Shown here: in pieces, positions 26,915-45,646 of the stretch
Numbering within the stretch: position 1 is the first letter of the stretch
Layout of the letters: every line of letters starts with the position of its first letter
DNA from: a virus
Strand: one strand, 5' to 3'
IMG/VR virus record: IMGVR_UViG_3300007734_000701
Coordinates: 1-45,646 of that record
Length of the DNA stretch: 45,646 nucleotides
Translations under genes and position numbers: made by a program
Notes under the pieces: model-generated
Seen by the model: only the letters and a program-made list of their open reading frames with translations
Databases searched by the model: none
What the model was told of the DNA's origin: nothing

Positions 26915-27831
26915 ATATAATCAACTCGTTTCTTGGGGACTATCATAGAACCGGAAACGAATATCTGTTCAATTGTCCCTTTTGTCATCATCACAAGAAG
27001 AAACTCTCTCTAAACTTTGAGAAGGGTAAGTATAAGTGTTGGATTTGTGACGAACACGGGAGCATTCGTAAATTAGTCCGCAAGAAAGCTAGGTGGGATC
27101 TTTTCCAGAAATGGAAAATTCTAGATGGAATCGTAGATTTAGACACAAATTTAAGTGATTTATTTACAGAGAAAACTCGTGGGCAAGATGAAATATTCTC
27201 CATGCCAGATAAGTTTGTCACACTAACAAGCAAGAACAGGACATTATCACATAAAAAGCCGCTGGGATATCTCGAAAAACGAGGAATAACAGAGGACGAT
27301 ATTTTATATTGGAAGATTGGATTTTGTTTTGGTGGAGAGTATGTGGATCGTGTTATCTTCCCATCGTTCAATCTAAACGGCGATCTAAATTATTTTGTCG
27401 GAAGAACAATAACCGGTGACAAGTTCAATAAGTTTAAGATGCCCTCGGCGTCTAAGGATGTCATATTCAACGAACTTTATATGGACTTCGATGTCGATGT
27501 TGTACTTGTTGAGGGCATGGTTGACGCCATAAAGGCTGGACAAAATTCAATTCCACTTCTGGGGTCCACTCTCCGGGAGGAAAGCAAACTCTTCCAGAAG
27601 ATTGTTGAATATGACACGGTAGTCTATACAGCATTAGACCCAGATGCGGCAGAGAAAGAGGGAGAAATAATAAGAAAACTTATCAACTACGGTATTGAGG
27701 TCTATAAGGTTGACGTTCTACCATTTGGAGACGTTGGGGAAATGACCAAGGAAGAGTTCCAAAGAAGAAAGTCCTTGGCTAAGTTGATGACATATGACAC
27801 ACTACTACAACAAGAACTGGAGACCGCATGA
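26893..27831 (+). CDS. 61: DNA primase, T4 gp61 / DnaG type
   Basis: This 312-residue protein has an N-terminal zinc ribbon with Cys28-x2-Cys31 (NCPFCHHHKK) and Cys49-x2-Cys52 (KCWICDEHGS). It then has a TOPRIM domain with VLVEGMVDA (Glu207) and TALDPDA (Asp249 and Asp251). This is the architecture of gp61/DnaG primases, which make RNA primers on the lagging strand, and the length fits gp61 (about 340). In T4 the partner is the gp41 helicase, which is not in this window. The start lies inside the resolvase gene, and the stop overlaps the next gene by four bases, so the three proteins are probably translationally coupled. Confidence 0.8.
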   Translation: MEVSDKLNIINSFLGDYHRTGNEYLFNCPFCHHHKKKLSLNFEKGKYKCWICDEHGSIRKLVRKKARWDLFQKWKILDGIVDLDTNLSDLFTEKTRGQDEIFSMPDKFVTLTSKNRTLSHKKPLGYLEKRGITEDDILYWKIGFCFGGEYVDRVIFPSFNLNGDLNYFVGRTITGDKFNKFKMPSASKDVIFNELYMDFDVDVVLVEGMVDAIKAGQNSIPLLGSTLREESKLFQKIVEYDTVVYTALDPDAAEKEGEIIRKLINYGIEVYKVDVLPFGDVGEMTKEEFQRRKSLAKLMTYDTLLQQELETA

Positions 27832-30800
27832 AGATTTTACACCTAGCCGACGTACACATTAAAAATTTAAAATATCATGACATATATCAAGATGTATTTG
27901 GCCAGCTATATGAGACCGCTAAGAATGAAAAGGTAGACGCAATTATTTGTTGCGGAGATATAGCACATACAAAGACAAATATCTCGCCAGAGTTTGTAGA
28001 TATGGCGAGCAGATTTTTTAACAATCTTGCCGATATCGCTCCATTATACATCATCGCCGGGAATCACGATGGAAATCTAAGAAACCTAGATCGACAGGAC
28101 GCTATTACTCCCATCGTAGAGGCGATAAACAGAAAGGAGATCTTCTTCCTAAAAAACTCAGGAGAGTGTCAACTTAATGATAAAATCACATTAAACGTAT
28201 TATCTATCTTCGATCGAGACAACTGGATAAAGCCAACCGATGTGAACAAGATAAATATAGCTTTGTATCATGGAGCAATAGAAGGATCCAGAACCGACAC
28301 CGGCTGGGCCATGAAGGAAACAGACGATGATATTTCTATCTTTGATGACTTTGACTATGCCCTTCTAGGGGACATACACAAGAGGCAGTTTCTCGGCAAT
28401 AGTTTTTCTAGCAGAAAGGGAAATGTTGCATACCCAGGATCACTGGTTCAACAGAATTTCGGAGAAGAGATAGACAAGGGAGCCCTGCTCTGGGACATTC
28501 AGGAAAAAAACAAGTTTACTGTCAAGCCTATTAATTTCAAGAATCCAAGCCCGTTCATAACAATTAACTATGATCCCGCAGAAGATCTAAAACTACAACC
28601 GAATTCTTTTCTAAGAGTCATTCTTGATAAATTTTACTCCAGAGATAAAATCCTAAAGATAAAGGAAGAAATCCATAAAAAATGTGATCCAAGATCTATA
28701 GTTGTTATAGAAAAAAGAGTTGATGACACACAACGAGTAACAGAAACCTCAAAATCTCAAAAATTAAATCTTCGCGATGAAAATGTTCAAAGTCAACTTA
28801 TAAAAGAATATCTGCAACAGGATAATCTGGATGAAGATACGATTAAATCTGTCCTGGATCTAAATACCAAATATAATTTAGAAGCTGAGATATCCGACGA
28901 CTGTGCTAGAAACGTTAAGTGGAGCTTGTCGAGCCTTGAATGGAACAACTTGTTTAATTATGAAGAAGACAACAAAATTCTGTTCGATGAGTTATCGGGA
29001 GTAGTCGGGGTGTTCGGAAAGAATTATTCTGGTAAATCTAGTATTATAGATTCTCTTTTATATACGATTTTTAATTCTACCTCAAAGAAGATTAGAAAGA
29101 ATTTTGATGTTGTAAACGAAAAGAGGACGAGCGGAGACGGAAGGGCAATCATAAAGATAAGAGGTGAGGACTTCTCAATAAAAAGGTCTACAGAAAAAGT
29201 TGTAAAAAAATCTAAGGGAAAAATTGTAGAAGAGGGAAAAACTTCTGTAGATTTTGTTGTTGGTATAGGCGAGGATGAGAAGAGTTTGAACGGAAACGAC
29301 AGAATGGAAACTGACAAGAACATAAGAAGAGAGATTGGATCAATTGAGGATTTTTGTAATACATCCCTTTCAACGCAACATGGATCGTTGGATTTCGTTA
29401 ACGAAGGCTCAACAAAGAGAAAGGAAATCCTTGCTAATTTCCTAGATCTGCAAGTATTTGAAAGAAAACATAAGCCAGCTAATCAAGAAGCGAATGAATT
29501 AAAATCTTTAATCAAAAAACTTCAAGTTAAGGACTGTTCTAAGTTGTTGTCCGAAGCTGTAACAAAAAAAGAAATTTTAGATGTTAATCTCCATGAGATC
29601 GAAGAGAATATGGAGAGCTTAAAGAAAGCCAGAGATGAGAAGATGTTGGAAGTCCAAAGGTTGGACGATGGAATCACAAAGGTAGACATTAACCTAAACA
29701 TTAAAGATCTTGAGCGGAAAAAATCTTATTTTGAAGATCTGATTGAAAAATGCCACGGAGAAATTAGCAGGCAGGAATTAAATATGGAAAAGCTAGGAGA
29801 TTCTCTTGACTTATTAGAACAAGAGAAGTCGCTAATCGACGCTGAGTATCTTTTAGATATAAAAAACAAAGAAGCTGCTCTGGTTTCACAACACAGCATT
29901 TTATCTTTTGATATTTCATCCAAGAAGAAAGATTTAGACATACACAACAAGAATCGTGAAAAGATAAAACTCGCCTCCTGCGGGACATCGCAATTCAACG
30001 ACTGTTCCTTCAAGAAAAGCGCCCTGGAGTCACAAAGACTGTCAATTACTATCAAGAGTGAACTCTCCACACTTCAGCAACAATTAGAAGAAATGACGAA
30101 AGAAATAGATGCACTCATGCCTCATGATGCACGCAGTAAATTAGATTCCTTCGCTTATTACAAGGAAAATATTGCCCAATCGGAGATTCATCTTCTCAAA
30201 TATAAATTATTTCTCAACGAAGAAAACGAAAATTTGAGAAAGCACATAGACAACTTGAATATTATCAATAGTAACCTAAAAAAATATGAAGATAATAAGG
30301 AATTCTATGAGAATATTAATGAATTAAGGGGGAACAAACTAGACATTGAGAATGAGATAAAAATAATTAATCAGAACATAGTGACTGGCGTGAGAGATAA
30401 GTTAGAAATAATAAAAAAAGTTGCTGCAATGGAACAGGTTATACTTGGGCTTGAGGAACAAAGGGTAGAATTGGAAAGATTAAATAAAGAATATTCTGCG
30501 TACGAATTATTTCTAAAGTGCGTACACAATAACGGAATTCCTTTCGAATTGATAAAAAAGAGTCTTCCAATCATAAATGAAGAAATTAACAAGTTGTTGT
30601 GTAACGTTGTTGACTTTGAAGCAAATTTTGAAAATGAAGATGGAAAATTAGAAATTTATATTACCCACCCAGGGTATTCATCTAGATCAATAGAAAATTG
30701 TTCTGGAGCAGAAAAATCCCTTGTCGCTATGGCGATACGATTGGCGTTGGTAAAGTGTGGAAGTCTTCCGGTTAGTGATATCTTTATTCTAGATGAACCG

Positions 30801-30971
30801 GCAACGTCGTTAGACGCCGAACACCTAGAGGGGTTTGTTAGAGTTCTTGACATGATCAAGAGCGAGTTCAAGGTTGTTTTGCTCGTTACTCATCTTGAAA
30901 CGTTGAAAGATTCTGTGGATAAAATAATTGAAGTCCAAAAGAACGAGGATGGGTTTGCCTCTATAAACTAG
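27828..30971 (+). CDS. 47-46: Fused gp47-gp46 (Mre11-Rad50 / SbcD-SbcC) recombination nuclease-ATPase
   Basis: A single uninterrupted 1047-residue frame joins two proteins that are separate in T4. Residues 1-350 are the calcineurin-like nuclease gp47/Mre11: DVH at 8-10, CGDIAHT (Asp44, His47), GNHD at 78-81, His148 and GDIH at 181-184. Residues from about 370 are the gp46/Rad50 ATPase: Walker A GKNYSGKSS at 397-405, a long coiled coil of about 540-930 with a hook-like C-x7-C pair (Cys718, Cys726, in the pattern CG-x4-FxxCxF), signature CSGAEK near 958-963, and Walker B FILDEPATSLD near 986-996. The complex resects DNA ends for recombination-dependent replication. A linker of about 330-370 joins the halves. 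The start overlaps the primase stop (ATGA). Confidence 0.92.
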   Translation: MKILHLADVHIKNLKYHDIYQDVFGQLYETAKNEKVDAIICCGDIAHTKTNISPEFVDMASRFFNNLADIAPLYIIAGNHDGNLRNLDRQDAITPIVEAINRKEIFFLKNSGECQLNDKITLNVLSIFDRDNWIKPTDVNKINIALYHGAIEGSRTDTGWAMKETDDDISIFDDFDYALLGDIHKRQFLGNSFSSRKGNVAYPGSLVQQNFGEEIDKGALLWDIQEKNKFTVKPINFKNPSPFITINYDPAEDLKLQPNSFLRVILDKFYSRDKILKIKEEIHKKCDPRSIVVIEKRVDDTQRVTETSKSQKLNLRDENVQSQLIKEYLQQDNLDEDTIKSVLDLNTKYNLEAEISDDCARNVKWSLSSLEWNNLFNYEEDNKILFDELSGVVGVFGKNYSGKSSIIDSLLYTIFNSTSKKIRKNFDVVNEKRTSGDGRAIIKIRGEDFSIKRSTEKVVKKSKGKIVEEGKTSVDFVVGIGEDEKSLNGNDRMETDKNIRREIGSIEDFCNTSLSTQHGSLDFVNEGSTKRKEILANFLDLQVFERKHKPANQEANELKSLIKKLQVKDCSKLLSEAVTKKEILDVNLHEIEENMESLKKARDEKMLEVQRLDDGITKVDINLNIKDLERKKSYFEDLIEKCHGEISRQELNMEKLGDSLDLLEQEKSLIDAEYLLDIKNKEAALVSQHSILSFDISSKKKDLDIHNKNREKIKLASCGTSQFNDCSFKKSALESQRLSITIKSELSTLQQQLEEMTKEIDALMPHDARSKLDSFAYYKENIAQSEIHLLKYKLFLNEENENLRKHIDNLNIINSNLKKYEDNKEFYENINELRGNKLDIENEIKIINQNIVTGVRDKLEIIKKVAAMEQVILGLEEQRVELERLNKEYSAYELFLKCVHNNGIPFELIKKSLPIINEEINKLLCNVVDFEANFENEDGKLEIYITHPGYSSRSIENCSGAEKSLVAMAIRLALVKCGSLPVSDIFILDEPATSLDAEHLEGFVRVLDMIKSEFKVVLLVTHLETLKDSVDKIIEVQKNEDGFASIN

Positions 30972-32472: not shown

Positions 32473-33043
32473 TGATATTCAAAATGATATCTATGAAATT
32501 GTTAGAGGAATCTACAAGGCGGTATCGTTGGCTTATGATGGTCCAACTTATAATGAAGATGAAGATAACAAGGTCGGTCTTCGTAGAGAAGAAGGGAATC
32601 CTCTTGTTGATAAGAGAATTATGGACGGATTTGGAGTTAAGGTTGGCGGGAGAAAATTAACAATTAATTATCATGTTGAACTCCCATTGCACGATATTTC
32701 TAAGATGGGACCATCAAAATTTGAGGGCGAGATTGAAGATACGATCGAAAAATGTTTGGCCTTTATTAAGAAGCAGTTTAAGAAGACCACCGGAAAGGCG
32801 TTGGCCGTGAAGGAACTCAAGAGAGAAACGAAGAGCGGAAAGAGTGTTAAAGATTTTGATGTTCTGATTCAATCAATCTCTAGAGTTAGAACCTCTGTAA
32901 CCGCACACAAATCATATGAACTAACTGGGATACCAGAGCCAGAAGAATACAAGAGCGAGATAATCGATCAGTATGAAAAATATCACAAGAACGTCCTAAA
33001 GAACAAGAAGAAGGCTGAAGCAACACCGAAAAGAATGGCATGA
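32453..33043 (+). CDS. Uncharacterised protein upstream of terminase (196 aa)
   Basis: This 196-residue protein starts inside the preceding gene and ends with ATGA overlapping the terminase start. Its first 100 residues are mixed (EIVRGIYKAVSLAYDGPTYN, then KLTINYHVELPLHDI), and the C-terminal 80 residues are helical and Lys-rich (EKYHKNVLKNKKKAE). The place is that of the small terminase gp16 in T4-type phages, but the expected DNA-binding and coiled-coil pattern is not clear, so this stays a hypothesis from position. Coupling to the terminase suggests a packaging or head/neck role. Confidence 0.5.
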   Translation: MAEIVNNDIQNDIYEIVRGIYKAVSLAYDGPTYNEDEDNKVGLRREEGNPLVDKRIMDGFGVKVGGRKLTINYHVELPLHDISKMGPSKFEGEIEDTIEKCLAFIKKQFKKTTGKALAVKELKRETKSGKSVKDFDVLIQSISRVRTSVTAHKSYELTGIPEPEEYKSEIIDQYEKYHKNVLKNKKKAEATPKRMA

Positions 33044-34623
33044 CCTATCAGTTAACAAAGAAGGAAATTGTTAAAGAAATTATTAGATGTGGAAAGGATC
33101 CCGTCTACTTTATAAACAACTTTGTTAAAATTTCCCATCCGATGGAAGGTCTGCTAGATTTCAAACTTTACCCGTTTCAAGAAGATTGCATAAAACAATT
33201 TCAAGACTATAGATTCAATATAGTCCTAAAGGCCCGCCAACTCGGACTATCAACGTCAGTAGCGGGCTTCGTTCTATGGATGATGTTGTTTCACAGAGAG
33301 AAGTCGATTCTCTCTGTTGCGACACAGTTAAATGTTGCAGTTGGTATGGTCAGAAAGGTCAAGGGGATGTATAAGAACCTCCCTGAGTGGATTAAGATTG
33401 CAAAAATTGAGGGCGATAACAAAAATACCTTTGAGTTAAATAACGGATCTTGGATTAAGGCTGCATCGACTACTGGAGATTCTGGTCGTTCGGAAGCTCT
33501 ATCGTTGTTGGTTGTTGACGAGGCAGGGATAATCCAGGGCATGGAAGAAATGTGGGCCGGTATTTATCCCACCATCTCTACCGGTGGTCGCTGTATAGTA
33601 GTATCCACTCCAAAGGGAGTGGGGAACTGGTTTCACAAGACCTTTATTGATGCTGAATCGGGGGCCAATGATTTTAACCCAATTAAGCTAAACTGGGATG
33701 TTCATCCTGGCAGAGATAAGAAATGGTTCGATGGTGAATCAAAAAATATGAATGCTAAGTCTATAGCACAAGAGCTAGAGTGCTCCTTCAATTTTTCAGG
33801 TAATACTCTTATCGACGGAGATGTGATTCAAAAGATTCGGGACTGTACACTCAAGCCCACAAGAAAAGCTGGGGTGGATAACAATATTTGGATATTTAAG
33901 GAAGCGGAACAAAATAAAAGATATTTGTTGGCCGCTGACGTAGCAAGAGGCGACGCTGAGGACAGTTCGGCATTTCACGTCTTTGATGTTGATTCTATGG
34001 AGCAGGTAGCAGAATATAAAGGGAAAGTTGCTCCGGAGCTATATGCCGACCTTCTCTATAACACATCTAAGGAATACGGATATTGTCTTATTATTGTAGA
34101 AAACAACACGTATGGGTATGGAGTTTTAGAAAAACTTAAGGCAACAAACCACCCGGCAATATATCATCATAAGCGAGGTAGCTCAGATTTTATTGAGCCA
34201 GTTGAGGCCACCTATGACCCGACTGCGATTCCTGGCTTCACAACGAACCAAAAAATGAGATCTCTTGCTATTGTGAAATTAGATGAGTTTATTAGAACTG
34301 GACAAATAAAAATAAACTCAGAAAGATTGGTAGACGAACTAAAGACTTTCGTGTGGAACAATGGTAAGGCGGAAGCTATGAAGGGTTATAATGATGACCT
34401 TGTAATGAGTTGTGCTATTGCCTGTTGGGTTCGCGAGGGAGCTTTAATAATCTCACAAAGAGATGTAGAATATAGGAAGGCTCTAATTAATTCTATCAAG
34501 ACTGGTTCAAGAACGCTTGATACGACAATTCCTGGGATGTCACAAAACGTTTCGGCAGAAAAGCGGAAGAGATGGTCAGAAGCTTATACAAATTCAAGAG
34601 AATATTCTTGGCTTCTAAAGTAG
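33040..34623 (+). CDS. 17: Terminase large subunit, gp17-like
   Basis: This protein is 527 residues long (T4 gp17 is 610). The ATPase domain has a variant Walker A loop KARQLGLST at 64-72, without the usual Lys after the second Gly position, then Walker B LLVVDEAG (Asp160, Glu161) and motif III VVSTPKG near 187-193. The RNase H-like nuclease has Asp300 (LLAADVARGD), Glu354 (IIVENNTYG) and Asp452/Asp453 (GYNDDLVMS). It packages DNA into proheads at the portal and cuts the concatemer. It is followed by the portal gene nine bases downstream, the usual T4-type neighbourhood without the intervening sheath and tube genes. Confidence 0.93.
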   Translation: MTYQLTKKEIVKEIIRCGKDPVYFINNFVKISHPMEGLLDFKLYPFQEDCIKQFQDYRFNIVLKARQLGLSTSVAGFVLWMMLFHREKSILSVATQLNVAVGMVRKVKGMYKNLPEWIKIAKIEGDNKNTFELNNGSWIKAASTTGDSGRSEALSLLVVDEAGIIQGMEEMWAGIYPTISTGGRCIVVSTPKGVGNWFHKTFIDAESGANDFNPIKLNWDVHPGRDKKWFDGESKNMNAKSIAQELECSFNFSGNTLIDGDVIQKIRDCTLKPTRKAGVDNNIWIFKEAEQNKRYLLAADVARGDAEDSSAFHVFDVDSMEQVAEYKGKVAPELYADLLYNTSKEYGYCLIIVENNTYGYGVLEKLKATNHPAIYHHKRGSSDFIEPVEATYDPTAIPGFTTNQKMRSLAIVKLDEFIRTGQIKINSERLVDELKTFVWNNGKAEAMKGYNDDLVMSCAIACWVREGALIISQRDVEYRKALINSIKTGSRTLDTTIPGMSQNVSAEKRKRWSEAYTNSREYSWLLK

Positions 34624-34632
34624 GAAACAAAT

Positions 34633-36663
34633 ATGGCAGATCGTCACAATAACCCAAAAAATAATACCAATCCTCTGTTTAAGAGATTAACAAAGATCTT
34701 CTCTGGGCCAATTATTAATTTTAGAGCCCAAAGACCAACTAAGGAAAAGAAGTATGAGCTGGATAAATATGCCAGCAAATTCAATTCTCTTGGCGGCCTT
34801 TCCTATAAAAAGAACACCTATAATCCGTTTGATTCTCTGCGATCTGGCAACATGGCTATCCAGAGCCGCGCACAGAGGTATGTTGATTTTGAGCAGATGG
34901 AATTTGCTCCAGAGCTGGCCTCGTGTTTAGATATTTATGCCGATGAGATGACCACCTTCACAGAGGTCTCAAAGGTTCTAAAGATTGATTGTAGAAATGA
35001 AGAAATAAAAAATATCTTGGATGTTCTATTTTATAAGGTCCTTAACATAGAATCTAACTTATTTAATTGGGCTAGAACAATGTGTAAGTATGGAGATTTC
35101 TTTTTATATTTGGACACTGATGAAACGATGGGGGTTAAGTCAGGGATCGGCCTACCATCGGCAGAGATTGAGAGACTAGAGGGTGAGGACGCAACAAATC
35201 CAAATTATGTACAGTTTCAATGGAATGCCGGTGGTCTGACGTTTGAGAACTGGCAAGTAGCCCATTTTAGGGTTCTCGGAAATGATAAATATTGTCCCTA
35301 TGGAACCTCGGTATTGGATCCGGCAAGAAGAATTTGGAGACAGCTCGTTCTAGTTGAAGATGCGATGATGGCATCAAGAGTCATTAGAGCCCCAGATAGA
35401 AAGGTGTTTAAGATTGACGTTACCGGTATCCCGCCAGAAGACGTAGAACAATATATGCAAAAAGTCATGACCCAGATGAAGAGACATCAGGTCGTTAATG
35501 ATGAGTCGGGACAAGTAGATCTAAGATACAATCCGATGAGCGTTGAGGAAGACTATTACCTCCCGGTAAGAGCTGGATCAAATTCAACAATAGAGCCACT
35601 AGCTGGGCAGAAGGGGATAGATTCCATTGACGATATTAAATATCTCAAGGACAAACTGTTCTCAGCAATAAAAATCCCGAAGGCTTATCTATCACAGTCG
35701 GACGGAGAAAGAGACGACAAGTCAACACTCGCCCAGAAGGATGTAAGATTCGCAAGAACAGTTCAAAGACTTCAAAGAGCGATGTTAACAGAGATGGAAA
35801 AAATTGGGATGGTCCACCTTTATACGCTGGGATTTAGAGGAGATGATCTTACTTCATTTAAACTATCTCTAAATAATCCATCGAAAATTGCACAAATGCA
35901 AGAACTAGAAGGGCTCAAGAGCAAGCTGGATGTGGCTGCTTCCGCTACTGGACAAAACTTCTTCTCAAGACAGTGGATCTCGAAGAACATATTTGGATTC
36001 TCTGACGAAGAATTGGAGAAGATGGAAAGACAAAGATTTTACGATAAGAGAGTTGATGCGGCCATTGAGGCATCGGCGCAAGACGTTTCTACTGCCAGCG
36101 ATATGAGCGGGGTCAGCGGAGTTGGCGGAGCGGATCTTGGAGGTGGAGAGCCAACAGGCGGTGCAGAGTCTGAACTTCCGGTGGCTCCTGGCGGCCTCGG
36201 AAATGCATTGGCTCCTGGAGTTCCCGGAGAAGAGGGAGCGGCTCCTATGGGCAGCGAAGAGCCACAGGCCGGAGAAGAAGGCGGAACCCCTTTATTAGCT
36301 ATGCCGCCATCCGAAGCTCCCGCCAAGAGAGATTACAACGCTGTTAGAAGAAATAAGAGCGGGGCTGTGCGAGTGGAATATGCAGACGGATCGTATGTAA
36401 CAGCCGGATCTAAGGGGAAGAGACACACTCCTCCTATCACGGATAAGAGAGAAGACGGCGGGCCAAGAAAGAGACACATGAGTTCTCTTGGCGGAGGGTC
36501 GTTTGGCTCAAATTCCAAGAGAAACGTATTTGGTTATGGATATGTTACAGCGGATAGACTTGCAAAAGGTATTGCTGAAGCAATGGACACTAATTACAAT
36601 AAGCGTGTCGAAGAAGAATTAAATAAACTTGACCAAGACATTAAATCTTTAATGGAAGAGTAA
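34633..36663 (+). CDS. 20: Portal protein, gp20-like
   Basis: This 676-residue protein has a gp20-type core. Recognisable blocks include FAPELASCLDIYADEMTT, AHFRVLGNDKYCPYGTSVLD, RRIWRQLVLVEDAMMASRVI and IKIPKAYLSQSDGERDD. The portal dodecamer sits at one head vertex, nucleates head assembly and passes DNA to the terminase. T4 gp20 has 524 residues; here residues about 480-560 are a Gly/Ala/Pro/Glu-rich extension followed by a basic C-terminal region, which is unusual. The first start with a good site (AGGAAAC before ATG at 34633) was chosen. Confidence 0.93.
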   Translation: MADRHNNPKNNTNPLFKRLTKIFSGPIINFRAQRPTKEKKYELDKYASKFNSLGGLSYKKNTYNPFDSLRSGNMAIQSRAQRYVDFEQMEFAPELASCLDIYADEMTTFTEVSKVLKIDCRNEEIKNILDVLFYKVLNIESNLFNWARTMCKYGDFFLYLDTDETMGVKSGIGLPSAEIERLEGEDATNPNYVQFQWNAGGLTFENWQVAHFRVLGNDKYCPYGTSVLDPARRIWRQLVLVEDAMMASRVIRAPDRKVFKIDVTGIPPEDVEQYMQKVMTQMKRHQVVNDESGQVDLRYNPMSVEEDYYLPVRAGSNSTIEPLAGQKGIDSIDDIKYLKDKLFSAIKIPKAYLSQSDGERDDKSTLAQKDVRFARTVQRLQRAMLTEMEKIGMVHLYTLGFRGDDLTSFKLSLNNPSKIAQMQELEGLKSKLDVAASATGQNFFSRQWISKNIFGFSDEELEKMERQRFYDKRVDAAIEASAQDVSTASDMSGVSGVGGADLGGGEPTGGAESELPVAPGGLGNALAPGVPGEEGAAPMGSEEPQAGEEGGTPLLAMPPSEAPAKRDYNAVRRNKSGAVRVEYADGSYVTAGSKGKRHTPPITDKREDGGPRKRHMSSLGGGSFGSNSKRNVFGYGYVTADRLAKGIAEAMDTNYNKRVEEELNKLDQDIKSLMEE

Positions 36664-38099: not shown

Positions 38100-39410
38100 A
38101 TGCCAGGAATACCATGTGGAGCGGCTAGAGGCAGACCTCCCACTGGAAGTGCGTGTGGCGACCTCACCGGCTCATATCCCTGCCCAGAGCTCAGAGCAAT
38201 AGGGTCAGCAACGGGACCGTTGGGTGGTGCAACCAGATCAGCAATCGTTACAGTAGACGCCAAGGGAAGAGTCTCTAGTCTTTCATCTGTTCTGATACAA
38301 ATTGCGGATACGCAAGTTACAGGCTTGACGGCGAGTCTTTCAACTCTAAGCTCTAGCATCGTAACACTAAGTTCTTCATCTGCAACAGCATTAACAAATC
38401 TTAGTTCATCAATGGCAACGGAAATCAGCAACGTATCGGCCACGGCCTCCGCTGCAATACCAAAATCTATTGCTACGGCTGCAAATCAAATGCTTTATTC
38501 AACTGGAGCTAGTGCTTGGGCTTCTGCCTCGTTGTTGTCTGGATGGCGATCCTTGCTTGGAAGCACAAAGGCAGCGTGGAACGAAACGACCGGCAAGTTG
38601 GGTATTGGAGCAAGCGTAGCACCAGTCTACGATGTCGATGTGGTCTATTCAACAGCGGCGTCGTTGGACACGCAGTTACCGTCGATCAGCGTGCAGAACG
38701 ACCATGTTTCTACAGCAACATCGGATTACAGTTTTGCGTCATTCCGTATGCAGGGCAAGAACAACTCCGCCGTCCCCACAATGGTAGGTCAGTTCTTTGC
38801 AGACGGGTCTGGTCATTTTCTCGGTAATCCACTGCTCGCTAGTTTGTATTTCAGAACCTTTAACGCACACCCGATTGTATTTGGTACGGCGTTTACACCG
38901 CGCATGATCATTGGACGCACGGGAACAGTAGCGATCGGCTCGACCGGATGGGTTGCTGGCGCTGGTTGGGAAGCCAAGGCTCTGCTACAGGTCGGCGATC
39001 GCAACGCAACGTTCCATACTGGCGGCACGGACGCACGTCTAGCGGTACACGGCGCGGCAATCCAGTCGCAAACAGCAGAAGTACTTGTCCGCTTAGTTCG
39101 CAACCTTGATGCTGCGAACTATTATCCGGCCGTTGTCGATCTGCGCGTGTCCGCATGGCAAGCTGGAGGTCCTGGCAATGGGTATAATCCAGCAACAAAG
39201 CTAGAGTTCAACCTGAAATCGGCTACGTCTTATGCTGAGTCGGCCGATGTCACCGTGATGGATCTGCGTTCCGATGGAACTGTTCGTATACCGGCATTAA
39301 CAGCAGGAAATCAGGTATACGCAACAACTGGCGGAAGATTGACAACGACAGAACCATCAGGTTCTGCACAAAAGAGTTACGCAAGAATATTTATGATGAT
39401 GGGAGCATAA
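38100..39410 (+). CDS. Fibre-like virion protein with mosaic central domain
   Basis: This 436-residue protein starts with a motif common in phage fibres (GDLTGSYPCPEL, then AIVTVDAKGRVSSLSS). A Ser/Thr/Leu/Ala-rich repeat-like stalk follows (residues 75-130). Then comes a beta-rich domain and a C-terminal strand block. Arg codons change inside the gene: AGA in the first 150 and last 30 codons, but 11 of 12 are CGN in the middle (38547-39290), where G+C also rises. This points to a domain acquired from another source. The gene lies in the head module between portal and protease, so it may be a head fibre rather than a tail fibre (inference). Confidence 0.65.
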   Translation: MPGIPCGAARGRPPTGSACGDLTGSYPCPELRAIGSATGPLGGATRSAIVTVDAKGRVSSLSSVLIQIADTQVTGLTASLSTLSSSIVTLSSSSATALTNLSSSMATEISNVSATASAAIPKSIATAANQMLYSTGASAWASASLLSGWRSLLGSTKAAWNETTGKLGIGASVAPVYDVDVVYSTAASLDTQLPSISVQNDHVSTATSDYSFASFRMQGKNNSAVPTMVGQFFADGSGHFLGNPLLASLYFRTFNAHPIVFGTAFTPRMIIGRTGTVAIGSTGWVAGAGWEAKALLQVGDRNATFHTGGTDARLAVHGAAIQSQTAEVLVRLVRNLDAANYYPAVVDLRVSAWQAGGPGNGYNPATKLEFNLKSATSYAESADVTVMDLRSDGTVRIPALTAGNQVYATTGGRLTTTEPSGSAQKSYARIFMMMGA

Positions 39411-39414
39411 AACC

Positions 39415-39738
39415 ATGGGTTTGAAAGTATTGGGTCAGTCTATTCCTTCAGCAGCAACTTCAACGTTGTTTTACACAGTGCCAGTTTCAACTTCAACAGT
39501 TGTTTCAACACTAACTGTTTGCAATCAATCAGCTACACCTACATCGTTTAGAATCTCTATTGGCATAGCAGGTGCAGTTTTGTCAACAGCACAGTATCTT
39601 TATTATGATGTGCCCATTGAAGGTAATACAACATTTGCGGCAACATTGGGAATAACTCTTGCCACAACTGATGTCATAAGAGTTTACGCAACGTTGGGAA
39701 CACTAAGTTTCAATGCATTTGGCGAGGAGATTTCATAA
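39415..39738 (+). CDS. Small virion beta-sandwich protein (107 aa)
   Basis: This 107-residue protein has alternating strands and small residues: MGLKVLGQSIPSAATSTLFY, STLTVCNQSATPTSFRISIG and LGITLATTDVIRVYATLG, ending in SFNAFGEEIS. This pattern is common in small phage structural proteins next to fibre genes, whose function is mostly undetermined. It follows the fibre-like gene by four bases and overlaps the next start by one base (TAATG), so the three probably work together on the virion surface. Confidence 0.65.
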   Translation: MGLKVLGQSIPSAATSTLFYTVPVSTSTVVSTLTVCNQSATPTSFRISIGIAGAVLSTAQYLYYDVPIEGNTTFAATLGITLATTDVIRVYATLGTLSFNAFGEEIS

Positions 39739-40925
39739 TGGCACATTCAGCAACAGGTCCGTTCAAGGTACTTTCTCTTACAGATTCAAAAGAAATATCT
39801 GCATTTGGAGAAGCGAGAACAACAACCCTTTGTCCAGTTGCTGGCTGGACATTTTCTTACAACATCATTGATGAGTTGGTTACAACAAGTTCTGTGAATT
39901 CTGGGAGTGTTACACAAACATCAGGGAGAGCAAAACTAAGTATTATTGGCTCTTCATCAGAAGCAAAGGTCCTAACCAAGAAAGCTGTTCGTTATCTTCC
40001 TGGCATTGGAGGGTTAGTTAGAGCAACTTGTCTTTGGGAAACCGCCCCAGCACCAGGAAACTTTAGAATCATTGGGCTTGGTAATAATGTTGATGGATTG
40101 TTCTTTGGAACTTCTGGATCAAGTTTCGGAATAACTCATAGAGTCAACAGCATTGATACGTTTTATTCACAATCAGCTTGGTCAGACAATACTTGTCCTT
40201 GGCTTGATATAAGCAAGGGAAATTTATACCAAATAAATTATCAATGGCTTGGATTCGGTGAAATAAAGTTTGACATAGAGGACCCAGCTACTGGAAGATT
40301 TGTTCCTGTTCACCGAATTAAGTATGCAAACACCTCTGTCTCCTGTTCATTGTTAAATCCAAATCTTCCAGTCAAAGCACACAACTATAATACATTTGCA
40401 ACAGGAAGTTTTGTTATGTATTCTCCCTCAGCCATGGGATTTGTGGAAAATCCCCAGGGTTATCTTCCCGTATTTCATGATCCGTTGACCATTTCAAGGC
40501 ATACATTGTTTGCAAGAAACTCCGTATCAGCAGAAGCTGTTCTTATTGTTCTTCAGAGTACCGGTTCTTTAAATGGTATAACAAACAGAATGAACATAGA
40601 TCTAACAAATTTAAATCTAACAACTGACGGAACAAAGGTTATTAACTTCAAGATTATAAGAAATCCAACGCTAGGTGGCGCAACTCCAGTTTATACAAAC
40701 ATTCTATTGAACCAATCTCCTATGAATGTTTCAACGACCGCTGGAATAACATACACGGGAGGTACTGAAAGGTGGGCAATGACTCTCATGAAGAATGATC
40801 GTGTTGATGAAGATCTTTCCCCGTGGATATTTGAACTAGCCCCGGGTGAAACAGTAATATTGACAGCACAGTCAGTGTCAAGTGTTGATATAGATGGCGC
40901 TATTCAGTGGTACGAACGTTATTAA
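39738..40925 (+). CDS. Virion surface protein, beta-rich (395 aa)
   Basis: This 395-residue protein is Ser/Thr/Asn-rich and mostly beta. A characteristic block lies near residues 15-90: AFGEARTTTLCPVAGWTFSY, then GSVTQTSGRAKLSI, then RYLPGIGGLVRATCLWE. I recall the same block in other phage structural proteins, but not a proven function. A second region (residues 300-390) resembles a lectin-like or sandwich domain. It is one of four fibre/decoration-like genes in the head module and ends 45 bases before the next gene, which has its own promoter-like box. Confidence 0.6.
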   Translation: MAHSATGPFKVLSLTDSKEISAFGEARTTTLCPVAGWTFSYNIIDELVTTSSVNSGSVTQTSGRAKLSIIGSSSEAKVLTKKAVRYLPGIGGLVRATCLWETAPAPGNFRIIGLGNNVDGLFFGTSGSSFGITHRVNSIDTFYSQSAWSDNTCPWLDISKGNLYQINYQWLGFGEIKFDIEDPATGRFVPVHRIKYANTSVSCSLLNPNLPVKAHNYNTFATGSFVMYSPSAMGFVENPQGYLPVFHDPLTISRHTLFARNSVSAEAVLIVLQSTGSLNGITNRMNIDLTNLNLTTDGTKVINFKIIRNPTLGGATPVYTNILLNQSPMNVSTTAGITYTGGTERWAMTLMKNDRVDEDLSPWIFELAPGETVILTAQSVSSVDIDGAIQWYERY

Positions 40926-40945
40926 GCTTTTATACACAATGCAAC

Positions 40946-40954
40946 CTATTTAAT
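40946..40954 (+). promoter_or_regulatory. Candidate late promoter element (CTATTTAAT)
   Basis: CTATTTAAT is identical to the box at 22998-23006 and lies 17 bases before the ATG at 40971, with the strong site AAGGAGA (40956-40962) between. Recurrence of the box plus strong site at several virion genes supports a late promoter; this is inference without expression data. Confidence 0.35.
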
Positions 40955-40970
40955 CAAGGAGAAATAAAAC

Positions 40971-41438
40971 ATGGCAGGATTTACATACCCAGCAAGTTCG
41001 GGAGGAGCTGCATATGATGATACGGCGTTGGCTGCATCAGTAGCGGCAGTGGCAGCGGCAGTACCAACAACAGTTACTATTCAGTTCGGAACATATACTG
41101 CCGCAAATGGAGGGAACAGCGGAACGATCCCGTTGTTTGACTCTGGATTGTTTGTCAACGGAGACATATGGAATGTTACCGGCCATGTTATTATGGAGCA
41201 CGACACAGATATTGGAATAATAAATTTTTCCGGATATTGGAAAAAGATTGGAGGTTCAATCGTTAAATCGACAACTGTGGCTACTCAATATCCCATATTA
41301 GCCGGGCAAGCTCTTGATCCGAACACATCCACCATTTATTTGGTAAACGGAAGTTGCGGAATTAATGTTAATAATTTCAATGCTAGTTCTTATCCCGTTA
41401 ACATTTCTGTATACGCCGAATTAAAATTTCTTAATTAA
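40971..41438 (+). CDS. Small fibre/decoration-like virion protein (155 aa)
   Basis: This 155-residue protein starts with a sequence typical of fibre attachment ends (MAGFTYPASSGGAAYDDTAL) and a short Ala/Val-rich helix. The rest is beta-like (GTIPLFDSGLFVNGDIWNVT, then YWKKIGGSIVKS). A strong ribosome binding site (AAGGAGA) and the CTATTTAAT box upstream suggest high late expression. It is probably an exposed head or fibre protein, inferred from neighbours and texture. The family is not known. Confidence 0.55.
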   Translation: MAGFTYPASSGGAAYDDTALAASVAAVAAAVPTTVTIQFGTYTAANGGNSGTIPLFDSGLFVNGDIWNVTGHVIMEHDTDIGIINFSGYWKKIGGSIVKSTTVATQYPILAGQALDPNTSTIYLVNGSCGINVNNFNASSYPVNISVYAELKFLN

Positions 41439-41440
41439 TT

Positions 41441-41448
41441 TATTTATA
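41441..41448 (+). promoter_or_regulatory. Possible promoter box (TATTTATA)
   Basis: TATTTATA follows directly on the stop of the upstream gene, 33 bases before the TTG start at 41481. It is close to the T4 late consensus TATAAATA and to the CTATTTA boxes elsewhere in the window. The stretch is AT-rich, so a chance match is possible. Confidence 0.25.
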
Positions 41449-41480
41449 GTGATAAGATATTGTAGTTTGCGGAGAGCAGA

Positions 41481-41834
41481 TTGCTTCAACTAATCTATTT
41501 TATTCTAATATCCTATGGTCTAACATCGATCCTGTGTTATGGTTCAATATTAGATTTCATAAGACCAAGTAATGGTTTTTTTGGGAAGCTGCTTCGTTGT
41601 CCAATGTGTCTAGGATTTTGGATTGGAGTACTTCTTTGTGGAGTTTCTCCATATACAGAACTATTTAGTTTTGAGCGATCCTTTATTAATTGCATCCTCC
41701 TTGGATGCCTAAGTTCTGGAACTAGTTATATATTGAGCATGGGAGTGGATGACGATGGCTTTAATTTTAAGATCAAATCAGGGTCACAATCTTTGGACAA
41801 CAAAGTGGATGAAGAGACCGCCAACAAATTGTAG
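41481..41834 (+). CDS. Small membrane protein with CPMC motif, TTG start
   Basis: The 117-residue frame starts with TTG at 41481, with GGAG at 41471-41474 as the site and no alternative ATG before the first membrane helix. Helices lie at about 4-22, 44-56 and 68-88; the first loop carries KLLRCPMCLGFWIG (Cys40, Cys43), like the CPxC pattern of the DUF1360 group of small membrane proteins. The tail is polar. Such proteins are widespread in phages and spore-formers, with unknown function. Its place in the head module is unexpected; it could affect the host membrane or lysis. Confidence 0.55.
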   Translation: MLQLIYFILISYGLTSILCYGSILDFIRPSNGFFGKLLRCPMCLGFWIGVLLCGVSPYTELFSFERSFINCILLGCLSSGTSYILSMGVDDDGFNFKIKSGSQSLDNKVDEETANKL

Positions 41835-41849
41835 AAAGGGATGCTGACT

Positions 41850-42047
41850 ATGAAAATTTCATATGAAAGATTAAATCAAATTATAGAAGAGGAGGTTGTT
41901 CGGTTTAAGAAATTAAATGAAGATACTCCTCTTGCGAAAGACCCAGCCATGGTTGCGTTTGATGCAGAAGTAACCAGAATTAGCGGTCTGGCCACCACAA
42001 AGGAAGCCGCCGTAAGACTAACAGGATTGCTTCGCGGGATAAAATAA
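41850..42047 (+). CDS. Small helical protein upstream of prohead protease (65 aa)
   Basis: Two in-frame ATGs exist, at 41841 and 41850. The site AAAGG (41835-41839) is only one base from the first and ten from the second, so 41850 is preferred. The product has 65 residues and is helical and charged (MKISYERLNQIIEEEVVRFK). It ends with TAATG overlapping the protease start. Small helical proteins in this place act as prohead core components in T4 (gp67/gp68); that role here is inference. Confidence 0.5.
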   Translation: MKISYERLNQIIEEEVVRFKKLNEDTPLAKDPAMVAFDAEVTRISGLATTKEAAVRLTGLLRGIK

Positions 42048-42643
42048 TGAATAAATATATCCTAACAGAATTCCTAGAATTAGAAAACGACTCAACTCTA
42101 TTAACGGAGGAAGAAAGGTCTCTAAACGCCTCTGGTCAGGAACTCATCCTCGCAGGAAGACTCCAGAAGGCGGATACAAAGAATGGCAATGGAAGAATTT
42201 ATCCAAAGAAAATTCTACAAAGAGAAGTGGAAAATTATAGAAAGTTAGTCTCTGAAAAGAGAGCCCTTGGCGAATTGGACCACCCAGAGAGTAGCGTTAT
42301 TGAGCTAAAAAACGCCTCTCATCTCGTTTCCTTTATTGAAATGAGAAACGATGAGGTTATTGGAAAGTTAAGAATCCTCGATACTCCATCGGGGAAGATT
42401 GCAAAGGACCTCATTAGAGGTGGAGTTAAGCTGGGAGTCTCGTCTCGAGGTCTTGGTTCAACCAGGGAACAGGGTGGGGAAACCGTAGTTCAAGATGACT
42501 TTCAGTTAATTTGTTTTGATCTTGTATCAGAACCATCGACAACTGGTGCCTTCCTATTCAAGGAAAACAAGGATCCTAACATCTTTACAAAGGCTGACAG
42601 AATTTATCGAGCATTAAACGATATACTATTAGAGAGTGATTAA
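42047..42643 (+). CDS. 21: Prohead maturation protease, gp21-like
   Basis: This 198-residue protein (T4 gp21 is 212) has the herpesvirus-assemblin-like fold motifs of gp21: NGNGRIYPKKI near 46-56, ALGELDHPESS with the catalytic His79, and VKLGVSSRGLGS with Ser132/Ser133. It then has FDLVSEPSTTGAF near 171-183. The enzyme cleaves scaffold and capsid proteins during head maturation. The gene lies upstream of the scaffold-like and capsid genes, as in T4, with four small or unrelated genes between. It is coupled to its neighbours by one-base overlaps on both sides. Confidence 0.92.
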   Translation: MNKYILTEFLELENDSTLLTEEERSLNASGQELILAGRLQKADTKNGNGRIYPKKILQREVENYRKLVSEKRALGELDHPESSVIELKNASHLVSFIEMRNDEVIGKLRILDTPSGKIAKDLIRGGVKLGVSSRGLGSTREQGGETVVQDDFQLICFDLVSEPSTTGAFLFKENKDPNIFTKADRIYRALNDILLESD

Positions 42644-43008
42644 TGACAAAACTAGAGATGAAGAAGTTGATGAAGCCTATTGTAAAGGAATGTCTTAGCG
42701 AAATGCTATTAGAGGAGGGGCTTCTCTCTAATCTGATCGGAGAAGTCCTAAAGGGACAGCAGAAGGTTGTTGTATCAGAGAACAGACAACCAACAAACAG
42801 AGTCTTGACTCAATCAAAACCAAAGTTGGCTTCGATAAGTGAAAAGAGAAAGATGCTTGCAGACGCGATTGGCAATGGGGCTTATTCGAATATTTTTGAA
42901 AATGTTACTCCAATATCGGACGCATCTAGCCAGTCGCACGAAGATGAAGGCGACCCGGGCATAGATTTATCAATACTTTCCAGGATTCCTGGAATGAAAA
43001 AGTTTTAA
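42643..43008 (+). CDS. Uncharacterised head-module protein (121 aa)
   Basis: The first 45 residues are helical (KLMKPIVKECLSEMLLEEGL, then SNLIGEVLKGQ) and resemble a short segment often seen next to phage protease genes. The middle is basic and unstructured, and the last 35 residues are acidic and Gly/Pro-rich (HEDEGDPGIDLSIL), ending in KKF. A prohead core or accessory role is possible; no function is known. The start overlaps the protease stop by one base. Confidence 0.55.
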   Translation: MTKLEMKKLMKPIVKECLSEMLLEEGLLSNLIGEVLKGQQKVVVSENRQPTNRVLTQSKPKLASISEKRKMLADAIGNGAYSNIFENVTPISDASSQSHEDEGDPGIDLSILSRIPGMKKF

Positions 43009-43018
43009 AGAGGAAGTG

Positions 43019-43282
43019 ATGGCAAATAAAAATTTTAATGTAGAAGTTAAGGCAAAGCAGTGGGAACACCCAGAGAAACTTATTAAGAGATTCCTTAATA
43101 AGGTCAAGAAAGAAAGAATTGTTGAGGAGGTCAAGAACAGAGAGTTTTATGAGCCACCCTCGGTGAAGAAGGTTAAGGCAAGACATAGACGAAAGAAGGT
43201 CCTTCAAAAATTAAGAGCCGAAAGAGAAGCCGTAGATAATACGACCGAAAGACAGAAAAATAAGAAATCGCGATCTAATTAA
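43019..43282 (+). CDS. rpsU-like: Ribosomal protein bS21 homologue (phage-encoded)
   Basis: The start used is ATG at 43019 after AGAGGA; a GTG three bases earlier is also possible. The 87-residue product aligns along its length with bacterial bS21: an N-terminal strand (NFNVEVKAK), a helix matching the RRFKR region (LIKRFLNKVKKERIVEEVKN), the hallmark REFYEPPSVKK at 41-51 (E. coli: REFYEKPTTERK), and a Lys/Arg-rich helix (ARHRRKKVLQKLRAE). It has a 20-residue polar tail absent from E. coli bS21 (71 residues). bS21 binds the 30S platform next to the anti-Shine-Dalgarno sequence and helps initiation. Phage bS21 genes are known; here it sits among late head genes and could bias host ribosomes toward phage mRNAs (inference). 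Confidence 0.85.
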   Translation: MANKNFNVEVKAKQWEHPEKLIKRFLNKVKKERIVEEVKNREFYEPPSVKKVKARHRRKKVLQKLRAEREAVDNTTERQKNKKSRSN

Positions 43283-43302
43283 TAGAGATCAGGAGATAGA
43301 AC

Positions 43303-43725
43303 ATGGCGAATGAGACAATGCAATGGCCCAGCGCGGGCTTGGGGTCAGTAGGCTCATATCAAATGAGCGGCATCCCATATGCGTCATCTAGCATAACAGT
43401 CCCAGTCAACTCTTCTACTCCATTGTGTATACAATTTCCATATGTCGTCAAGTTTGTAACAATTGCAAATGTTGGCTCCTCTGTGCCATTCCGAGTTGGA
43501 TTTAGTGCAAAGGGAGTTTCTGGCTCGGCATCAAATTATTTTGTCGTACCATCCGGGTCATCGTATACGGGAGATTGGAGAATAGAGGACCTGTATCTTA
43601 TATCTGATACATCTGCCCAAAGTTCTGCTTCTATAATTGCTGGACTTACTCCAATTCCAAGAGGAGTACCTCCGTTGGGTTCCGCGACCGGAAACAACTG
43701 GTCGGGATCATCTGGAGTTGGATAA
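43303..43725 (+). CDS. Capsid decoration-like protein (140 aa)
   Basis: This 140-residue protein is beta-rich with Ser/Gly/Val: QWPSAGLGSVGSYQMSGIPY, then FPYVVKFVTIANVG, then VPFRVGFSAKGVSGSASNYF, ending in SASIIAGLTPIPRGV. I recall similar proteins near capsid genes of marine T4-like phages, often detected as virion proteins. A strong site (AGGAGATA) eight bases before ATG suggests abundance. A head decoration or outer-capsid role is likely, but not shown by a diagnostic motif. Confidence 0.6.
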   Translation: MANETMQWPSAGLGSVGSYQMSGIPYASSSITVPVNSSTPLCIQFPYVVKFVTIANVGSSVPFRVGFSAKGVSGSASNYFVVPSGSSYTGDWRIEDLYLISDTSAQSSASIIAGLTPIPRGVPPLGSATGNNWSGSSGVG

Positions 43726-43734
43726 TTATTTAAC
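43726..43734 (+). promoter_or_regulatory. Possible late promoter box (TTATTTAAC) ahead of the scaffold gene
   Basis: TTATTTAAC differs by two bases from CTATTTAAT and is followed directly by the strong site GGAG (43735-43738) and the ATG at 43747. The short distance (about 13 bases) would give a very short leader, so the box may instead be part of the previous gene's 3' end. The call is weak. Confidence 0.25.
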
Positions 43735-43746
43735 GGAGATAAAAAT

Positions 43747-45486
43747 ATGAGTTCATTGTTAGAACAGGCGATATTAGACGCTAAGGAGTTGAAGGAAGCG
43801 GCGGTAAGAAACGCTCAACAGGCTATTGTTGAGAAATATTCCTCGGAGTTCGAGGGGGAGATAGAACGTCTTCTGGAGCAGACAGAGGTTGCACCTCCCG
43901 TTGGTGATACAGCAGCTACGATTCCTCCTGCCGCTGCTGGTGCTGCACCAGCCATGCCAATGCCTCCAGTTGGAGCAACAGCTTCAACGCAGCCGGTTGA
44001 CCCAGAAAAGGCCAAGAACGATTCTGACAAAAAGTCAGACCTATTTGGCAAGCTTCAATATGCCTTTAAGGATGGAGAAATTATCGACGATAAGGCATAT
44101 CCCACCGGAGTTGTAGAAATAGATCTGGATTCTCTTTCAGAATTTGGGTTTGAAAACAACAAGAAGGAATCGGTCGATCAGATGGCACTTCAGGAACTAA
44201 GACAATTGATGAAGAAATCAAGATTAAAGGAAAACCTTGGATCCTCTAAGGATGACGAGTGGGAAGAAGTCGGTAGCGAGGACTTCCCATATGGCGGCGG
44301 AAATGATGAGGAGCTGGGAGATGACGAGAGGTCTCCTGAGACCTGTGAGGAATGCGGAGAAGGCAGGGAGGATTGTGCGTGTGCAGATCTCGAGGGGTAT
44401 GACGACGATGAAGATTCTCTTGAAGGGTTAGATGAATATCGTGGTGATAAGGTCTCTGGAGTAGATGAGGACGAGGAAGATTTAGACGACGATTTCGACT
44501 CTGATGAAGAGTTGGACGACGACTTTGGTGAGGAAGAAGACTCAGAAAGCGAAGAAAATTTTGAAATAGACTTTGATTCAGAACCGAACAGTGACAGAGT
44601 CAATCTGGGAGATGAGACCAGCGTTGAGGATGATGACTTTGATTCAGACGATGATTTTGACGACATAGATGATGACGAGGAAGGTTTTGACGACGATGAT
44701 ATCCTGCAAGAGGATGAACTCAACGAAGCTGCCAAGAAACAGTCTCTCGCGGTTGTTGTGCAGAAATTAATAAACATGCAGGGCAAGGTTGAGAAGAAGC
44801 ATCCTGGACTCGGAGCCGAACTTAAGTATATTATTGATATGGTGAAGGAACTAGACGACAAGGGAAAGAAGCCTGCTGCTGATAAGAAGACAACGGCTGC
44901 TTCCAAGGACAAGATTGATGAAGCCATTAAGCTTGACTGGAAGAGATCTGGACCTCGCTCTAAGTGGACTGGTGTAAACCCAGAAGAAGCAGAACATGAT
45001 GTAGAGCTCGCAAATCTACAGGCAGAAATCCAGGAAATGGAGCAGGAGGTTGAGACTCTTGAGGAATCAAATAAGAAACTTAAGGCCGGACTCGGAGAGT
45101 CAATTGCTCTCATAGAGAACGTAACCAAGGAAAATCAAAGATTATTAACAAAGATTTCTAGATATGAAAAAAATGTCAATGAATCGAGGTTTTTGAATCA
45201 TAGATTACTATATATAAATAAGGCATTAATGGACGGCTCCTTAAATGAGCGACAGAAAAACAAGATTGTTGAGTCCATCAATGGTGCGAAGACGACAGAA
45301 GAAGTAAAATTGCTTTACGAGACATTACAGAGCACAATGCGGGACGCAACAAGTAACAGTGGACCCAAATCATTGAGCGAGGCAGTTGAAAGACGTTCTT
45401 CTTCAATCCTTCTAAGAGCTTCCCGAGCGGAAGACAAACCGAAGGATGATTTTGCTGAACGTATGAAACGATTAGCGGGAATTTAA
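43747..45486 (+). CDS. 22: Acidic prohead scaffold/core protein (gp22 position)
   Basis: The 579-residue product is about twice the length of T4 gp22 (269). Layout: a helical N-terminus (residues 1-50), a Pro/Ala-rich linker (51-85), a short folded part, then a very acidic Asp/Glu segment at about 169-326. A helical coiled-coil C-terminal half follows (LQAEIQEMEQEVETLEES). Inside the acidic part a Cys cluster, Cys200-x2-Cys203-x6-Cys210-x-Cys212, could bind a metal. An acidic protein directly before the capsid gene fits the scaffold that the gp21 protease removes. The gp22 identity is inferred from place and composition. Confidence 0.7.
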   Translation: MSSLLEQAILDAKELKEAAVRNAQQAIVEKYSSEFEGEIERLLEQTEVAPPVGDTAATIPPAAAGAAPAMPMPPVGATASTQPVDPEKAKNDSDKKSDLFGKLQYAFKDGEIIDDKAYPTGVVEIDLDSLSEFGFENNKKESVDQMALQELRQLMKKSRLKENLGSSKDDEWEEVGSEDFPYGGGNDEELGDDERSPETCEECGEGREDCACADLEGYDDDEDSLEGLDEYRGDKVSGVDEDEEDLDDDFDSDEELDDDFGEEEDSESEENFEIDFDSEPNSDRVNLGDETSVEDDDFDSDDDFDDIDDDEEGFDDDDILQEDELNEAAKKQSLAVVVQKLINMQGKVEKKHPGLGAELKYIIDMVKELDDKGKKPAADKKTTAASKDKIDEAIKLDWKRSGPRSKWTGVNPEEAEHDVELANLQAEIQEMEQEVETLEESNKKLKAGLGESIALIENVTKENQRLLTKISRYEKNVNESRFLNHRLLYINKALMDGSLNERQKNKIVESINGAKTTEEVKLLYETLQSTMRDATSNSGPKSLSEAVERRSSSILLRASRAEDKPKDDFAERMKRLAGI

Positions 45487-45492
45487 ATATTC

Positions 45493-45500
45493 CATTTAAC
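45493..45500 (+). promoter_or_regulatory. Possible late promoter box (CATTTAAC) ahead of the capsid gene
   Basis: CATTTAAC resembles the CTATTTAAT boxes and lies 24 bases before the capsid ATG at 45525, with the strong site AAAGGAGATAAAAC between. As the capsid is the most abundant virion protein, a promoter here is expected, but the motif match is partial and the stretch is AT-rich. Confidence 0.3.
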
Positions 45501-45524
45501 TTTTATCAAAGGAGATAAAACATT

Positions 45525-45646
45525 ATGGCAAGTATAGTTGAAAGATTAACAGAAAATATTGTAGAAAGAAATCTCCTTCGTGAAGGCGCTGCTCTCTCAA
45601 AGAAATGGGAAAAGACAGGTCTACTTGAAGGAATCGATAGAGACTC
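45525..45646 (+). CDS. 23: Major capsid protein gp23-like, N-terminal part (truncated by window end)
   Basis: ATG at 45525 after the site AAAGGAGAT opens a frame that runs off the right edge; 40 full residues are visible. They read as an amphipathic N-terminus (MASIVERLTENIVERNLLRE) followed by AALSKKWEKTGLLEGIDRD. The K-W-E-x-T-G-L-L-E-G segment is typical of the N-terminal region of T4-type gp23 proteins, part of which the gp21 protease removes. Its place directly after the scaffold gene is the standard T4 order. The rest of the gene is outside the window. Confidence 0.85.
   Translation, partial: MASIVERLTENIVERNLLREGAALSKKWEKTGLLEGIDRD

Follow-up and report, generated by a model that had tools for sequence, protein, structure and literature searches.

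The head block and its bS21 gene

The window, meaning the whole 45,646-nt stretch of viral DNA that was analysed, carries a block of head genes on its + strand (Table 1). The gene order is terminase, portal, p272, p202, 3.4 kb of other ORFs, p117, p66, protease, p121, bS21, p140, the gp22-position gene and gp23. The bS21 gene is the second gene 3' of the protease and the third 5' of the gp23-position gene, and the gaps flanking it are about 10 and 20 nt. Its predicted placement between the prohead protease and the scaffold and capsid genes is borne out, with a PF03420 protease on the 5' side, the gp22 and gp23 positions on the 3' side, and all on the same strand. The small protein p121 has no Pfam or PHROG family at E <= 0.001. 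The acidic protein is a putative gp22 scaffold by its position and by a profile match to the Mel-JY01 gene that precedes capsid (E=3.5e-63). A profile of the first 40 gp23 residues matches the annotated Mel-JY01 capsid protein (E=3e-9).

Table 1. Coordinates of head-block features in the window
Feature	Coordinates	Strand	Evidence
Terminase large subunit	33040..34623	+	PF03237 E=4.9e-7
Portal protein (gp20)	34633..36663	+	PF07230 E=1.3e-72
p117, conserved, DUF1360-like stretch	41481..41834	+	PF07098 E=5.2e-4, just under its cut-off; relatives
Prohead protease, gp21 type (Peptidase_S77)	42047..42643	+	PF03420 E=2.1e-23; phrog_207 E=3.2e-50
p121, conserved small head-block protein directly 5' of bS21	42643..43008	+	Mantel r=0.70 with bS21
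Shine-Dalgarno-like GAGG of the bS21 gene	43010..43013	+	5 nt ahead of ATG; sequence
Phage bS21 gene, 87 aa	43019..43282	+	ATG start; PF01165 and TIGR00030 above curated cut-offs; AlphaFold2 model; dN/dS
p140, conserved protein 3' of bS21, strong SD	43303..43725	+	synteny; group SD strength
Acidic protein, gp22 scaffold position	43747..45486	+	position; profile against Mel-JY01
Major capsid (gp23) gene start, cut by window end	45525..45646	+	AGGAGAT SD; N-terminal profile

No forward-strand terminator-like site was found in 41400-45646, and this absence, together with the short gaps, is consistent with co-transcription of bS21 with the head genes. The original prediction also had bS21 made late with the virion proteins; this stands as probable, because the gene is placed in the head block, is co-oriented with it and is not separated from it by a forward terminator-like site.

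The T4-type late promoter TATAAATA was considered and set aside, as not one of its 10 sites (4.7 expected) stands clearly 5' of that block. The ORFs between p202 and p117 number four and span about 3.4 kb (38100-41438); the three that were tested have no Pfam match. Relative L002 has a similar gap, and in L003 p202 and p117 are adjacent. Elsewhere in the window, a 1047-aa ORF (27828-30971) has a calcineurin-like phosphoesterase match (residues 1-185) and an SMC_N match (residues 367-1042, under its cut-off), and looks as if it were a gp47 and gp46 (SbcD/SbcC) fusion.

The bS21 gene lies in an ORF at 43016-43282 with two in-frame starts. The ATG at 43019 is the better one, because the GAGG is spaced 5 nt from it and only 2 nt from the GTG at 43016, and the product from this ATG has the 87 residues originally given. 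A search with the Pfam bS21 model, suggested earlier as a check, passes the curated cut-off (PF01165, E=1.2e-8, 34.9 bits against 27, residues 10-60), as does NCBIfam TIGR00030 (32.2 bits against 28.95), and these identify the product as bS21. It also matches phrog_21469 (E=3.8e-5), and solved bS21 chains match it by sequence (best E=2.5e-5). The match had been described as running along the whole protein; it is real, but covers residues ~10-66 only. The "20-residue extra tail" was overstated, since 40 residues follow the conserved (K/P)PS proline versus 30 in E. coli. The tail is thus about 10 residues longer than that of E. coli bS21 and is no oddity; proteins of 65-95 aa are common in the phage group. 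The window protein retains the core residues F25, Y44, P47 and S48 as well as the basic C-terminal helix.

An AlphaFold2 model built from a 60-sequence alignment has a mean pLDDT of 88 and a pTM of 0.52. In a PDB search with this model the top 14 of 17 matches are bS21 or organellar homologues (TMt 0.83 to chloroplast bS21), with no match at E <= 0.001, as expected for a protein so small. The predicted helical fold thus matches mainly solved bS21 chains, in line with the identification. Compared with the nearest relative, L002, the gene has a dN/dS of 0.026 (21 synonymous and 3 non-synonymous changes), and other measurable pairs give 0.03-0.23. The bS21 gene is under strong purifying selection.

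Some relatives have unusual forms of the protein. L007 (6001-6360) encodes a bS21 of 119 aa with a tandem repeat of ~37 residues (EEAKDRRYYKKPSVRKREEQ...) in its C-terminal part, and L046, L047 and L049 have an Asn/Arg-rich N-terminal extension of ~30 residues. KKERIVEE seemed invariant in the first 70 relatives but was dropped as a motif: it was itself among the scan patterns, and KKERI occurs in 14 of 91 bait-independent loci.

Distribution and inheritance of the gene

A bS21-based scan identified 70 relatives, all with bS21 in the same head block, though such a scan selects for bS21 itself. To avoid this, relatives were sought with the protease or p117 as bait, the latter a bS21-independent one, and bS21 was found in 48/59 and 48/55 loci, respectively (loci with at least 1.5 kb downstream; the two sets overlap partly and are not deduplicated). 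Bait-retrieved loci that have bS21 always carry it 3' of the protease and on the same strand. Protease and gp23 are both present in 47 loci; bS21 lies between the two in 42 of these, lies outside that interval in none, and is not detected in 5, where absence means that one profile failed within the retrieved flank and may in some cases reflect a missed gene. Exactly one PF01165 match is present in Mel-JY01 and in the whole records of 14 of 15 long IMG/VR relatives, some of which were chosen through bS21. The record of Flavobacterium phage immuto has no PF01165 match anywhere. bS21 is a near-core gene of the head operon in a large phage group. The order of bS21 and the p140 homologue is reversed in L046 and L047, with p140 first.

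A cultured counterpart is the Microcystis phage Mel-JY01 (PP395634), in which RpsU (WWT39311.1) is annotated in the same slot. Like the window, it has terminase, portal, protease, one small protein, bS21, the gp22-position gene and capsid on one strand; its bS21 differs in being 75 aa long and divergent, and tblastn with the window protein misses it at E <= 1. The T4-like cyanophages S-H9-1 and Syn1, as well as immuto, share the gp20-gp21-gp22-gp23 order but, unlike the window, have no bS21 between gp21 and gp22.

Phage bS21 is not new. Mizuno et al. 2019 reported that no other ribosomal protein comes close to it in frequency among uncultivated phages (PMC6375957), and S21 is a core gene of pelagimyophages (PMC7029224). 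Chen et al. 2022 described hundreds of phages whose bS21 gene lies close to those for prohead protease and capsid (a protease within ten genes of it in 310/900 genomes), found late bS21 transcription by metatranscriptomics and proposed substitution into host ribosomes (PMC9723584). The head-block position and late substitution, put forward for this DNA, therefore have an earlier source. The freshwater Bacteroidetes jumbo phages of that study resemble the window in having bS21 a few genes from the prohead protease and MCP. In its five clades the gene is on the reverse strand, whereas in the window and the bait-retrieved loci it shares the strand of the structural genes. The window bS21 is real, conserved and probably ribosomal, and largely a known kind of phage gene. 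The same-strand arrangement and an SD-compatible residue pattern (see below) may be modest additions, unstated in those parts of the earlier papers that were covered.

Within the group, bS21 distances correlate with protease distances (Mantel r 0.52) and with p121 distances (0.70), with 0/999 permutations as high, which is consistent with long inheritance of bS21 with the head block. The fixed position between gp21 and gp22 and the co-variation with p121 might also be expected if bS21 had been recruited as a virion or prohead-core part, or were packaged and injected, and were no longer mainly ribosomal; Chen et al. had considered that the protein might be packaged (PMC9723584). The retention of F25, Y44, P47, S48 and the basic C-terminal helix speaks against such a change of function, which is very improbable.

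The phylogeny with bacterial bS21, suggested earlier as a guide to the host, keeps phage and bacterial rows largely apart. The tree, built on 80 aligned columns from 61 phage and 10 bacterial sequences, is weakly resolved. The AU test does not reject one phage clade (p-AU 0.52), but the bacterial sample is small and two rows have very long branches, so that a single origin is no more than possible. The tree bears on the idea that the phage protein, with no mRNA selectivity, tops up the host bS21, which binds loosely and would run short once many ribosomes initiate together. bS21 is described as exchangeable between ribosomes (PMC6375957) and the residues common to host and phage bS21 are kept, but the phage proteins are far from the sampled bacterial ones and do not look like recent host copies; this explanation appears unlikely.

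Host clues were rejected. A genome scan with bS21 returned three MAGs only, one from FCPU426, one from Elusimicrobia and one labelled Rickettsia typhi, and in each the sole bS21 gene looks cellular. Matches to Pseudomonadota are ~40% identical, hence no host call. Relative G002 encodes a one-piece tmRNA (L250:7969-8327, RF00023, 126 bits, tag ANDNVAFDYAVAA) beside a tRNA array, and this tmRNA gave partial matches only. Relative G001 has 15 tRNA-like genes.

Shine-Dalgarno usage and the Tyr54 position

The original prediction noted strong SD sites at many genes, and about half of the window starts (~19/36, approximate because the p66 and gp23 starts were misplaced) are indeed preceded by an SD core of 4 nt or more, versus 16% of internal ATGs. 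Anti-SD pairing in the window averages -5.2 kcal/mol at starts and -2.7 kcal/mol at internal ATGs, and the median difference between the two across 161 related loci is -3.2. There is no SD signal at the starts of immuto. Of the genes compared across the group, the gp23-position gene has the strongest SD (mean -9.75 kcal/mol), followed by p140 (-7.4) and the gp22-position gene (-6.5); starts were taken as the first ATG of the open frame, which makes the values unreliable where further ATGs lie upstream, most of all for terL. Loci without bS21 also have a strong gp23 SD (mean -7.8, n=5), so SD strength alone is no argument for selection by bS21, and the earlier proposal that the phage protein favours late mRNAs is hypothetical.

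In F. johnsoniae, Tyr54 of bS21 is stacked against A1534 and diverts the 3' tail of the 16S rRNA (PMC9976891). The aligned residue is Lys in both the window protein and E. coli bS21, and across 93 aligned sequences it is R/K in 82 and Tyr in 1. The five clades of Chen et al. have an aromatic residue here, in contrast to the window. The Lys suggests that the window bS21 would leave the anti-SD free. Given the strong SD sites and Lys/Arg where Bacteroidia have an anti-SD-sequestering tyrosine, the protein is probably SD-compatible, unlike those of the Bacteroidota phages of Chen et al. 2022. This contrast suggests that phage bS21 may adapt to whichever initiation mode its host uses.

Proposed role of the phage bS21

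It is fairly likely that this is a genuine bS21 that is made late, enters the host 30S and keeps or tunes SD-dependent initiation in the late burst. A T4-like phage would encode it as a near-core gene of the head operon and make it together with the late virion proteins; the protein would then enter host 30S subunits, replacing or adding to the exchangeable host bS21, and SD-dependent initiation would be maintained or adjusted while the late burst lasts. Ribosome incorporation is presumed by analogy with bS21 of the Pelagibacter myovirus HTVC008M (AGE60443), which is the one tested and which enters E. coli 70S ribosomes (PMC6375957). Its gene lies near CobS, a heat-shock gene and the sliding clamp genes, whereas that of the window is in the head block. 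Late transcription is likewise inferred from the phages of Chen et al. (PMC9723584).

Ribosomes with HTVC008M bS21 made ~5% of the reporter protein in vitro, and those with tagged E. coli bS21 ~75% (PMC6375957). The low activity suits inhibition as well as redirection, and phage bS21 could mainly inhibit host ribosomes as a translation shut-off, not redirect them to phage messages. The HTVC008M test crossed species, placing a SAR11 phage protein in E. coli, and a late ribosome block would also harm capsid synthesis while bS21 sits in the capsid operon, so that shut-off seems quite improbable here. Within the favoured reading of a late, SD-compatible bS21, a more specific version is doubtful but worth stating: operon-coupled bS21 in an SD-using host may retune the 30S to strong-SD late messages (p140, scaffold and capsid). 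If so, capsid synthesis and ribosome composition would rise together. The near-core single-copy gene, the strong-SD group and the cultured Mel-JY01 make this a good test system for specialised ribosomes.

A small translation-related cluster occurs in another phage, L287 (Vibrio phage 2.275.O), where genes annotated as IF-3, RpsU and an L7/L12/ClpS-like protein follow one another.
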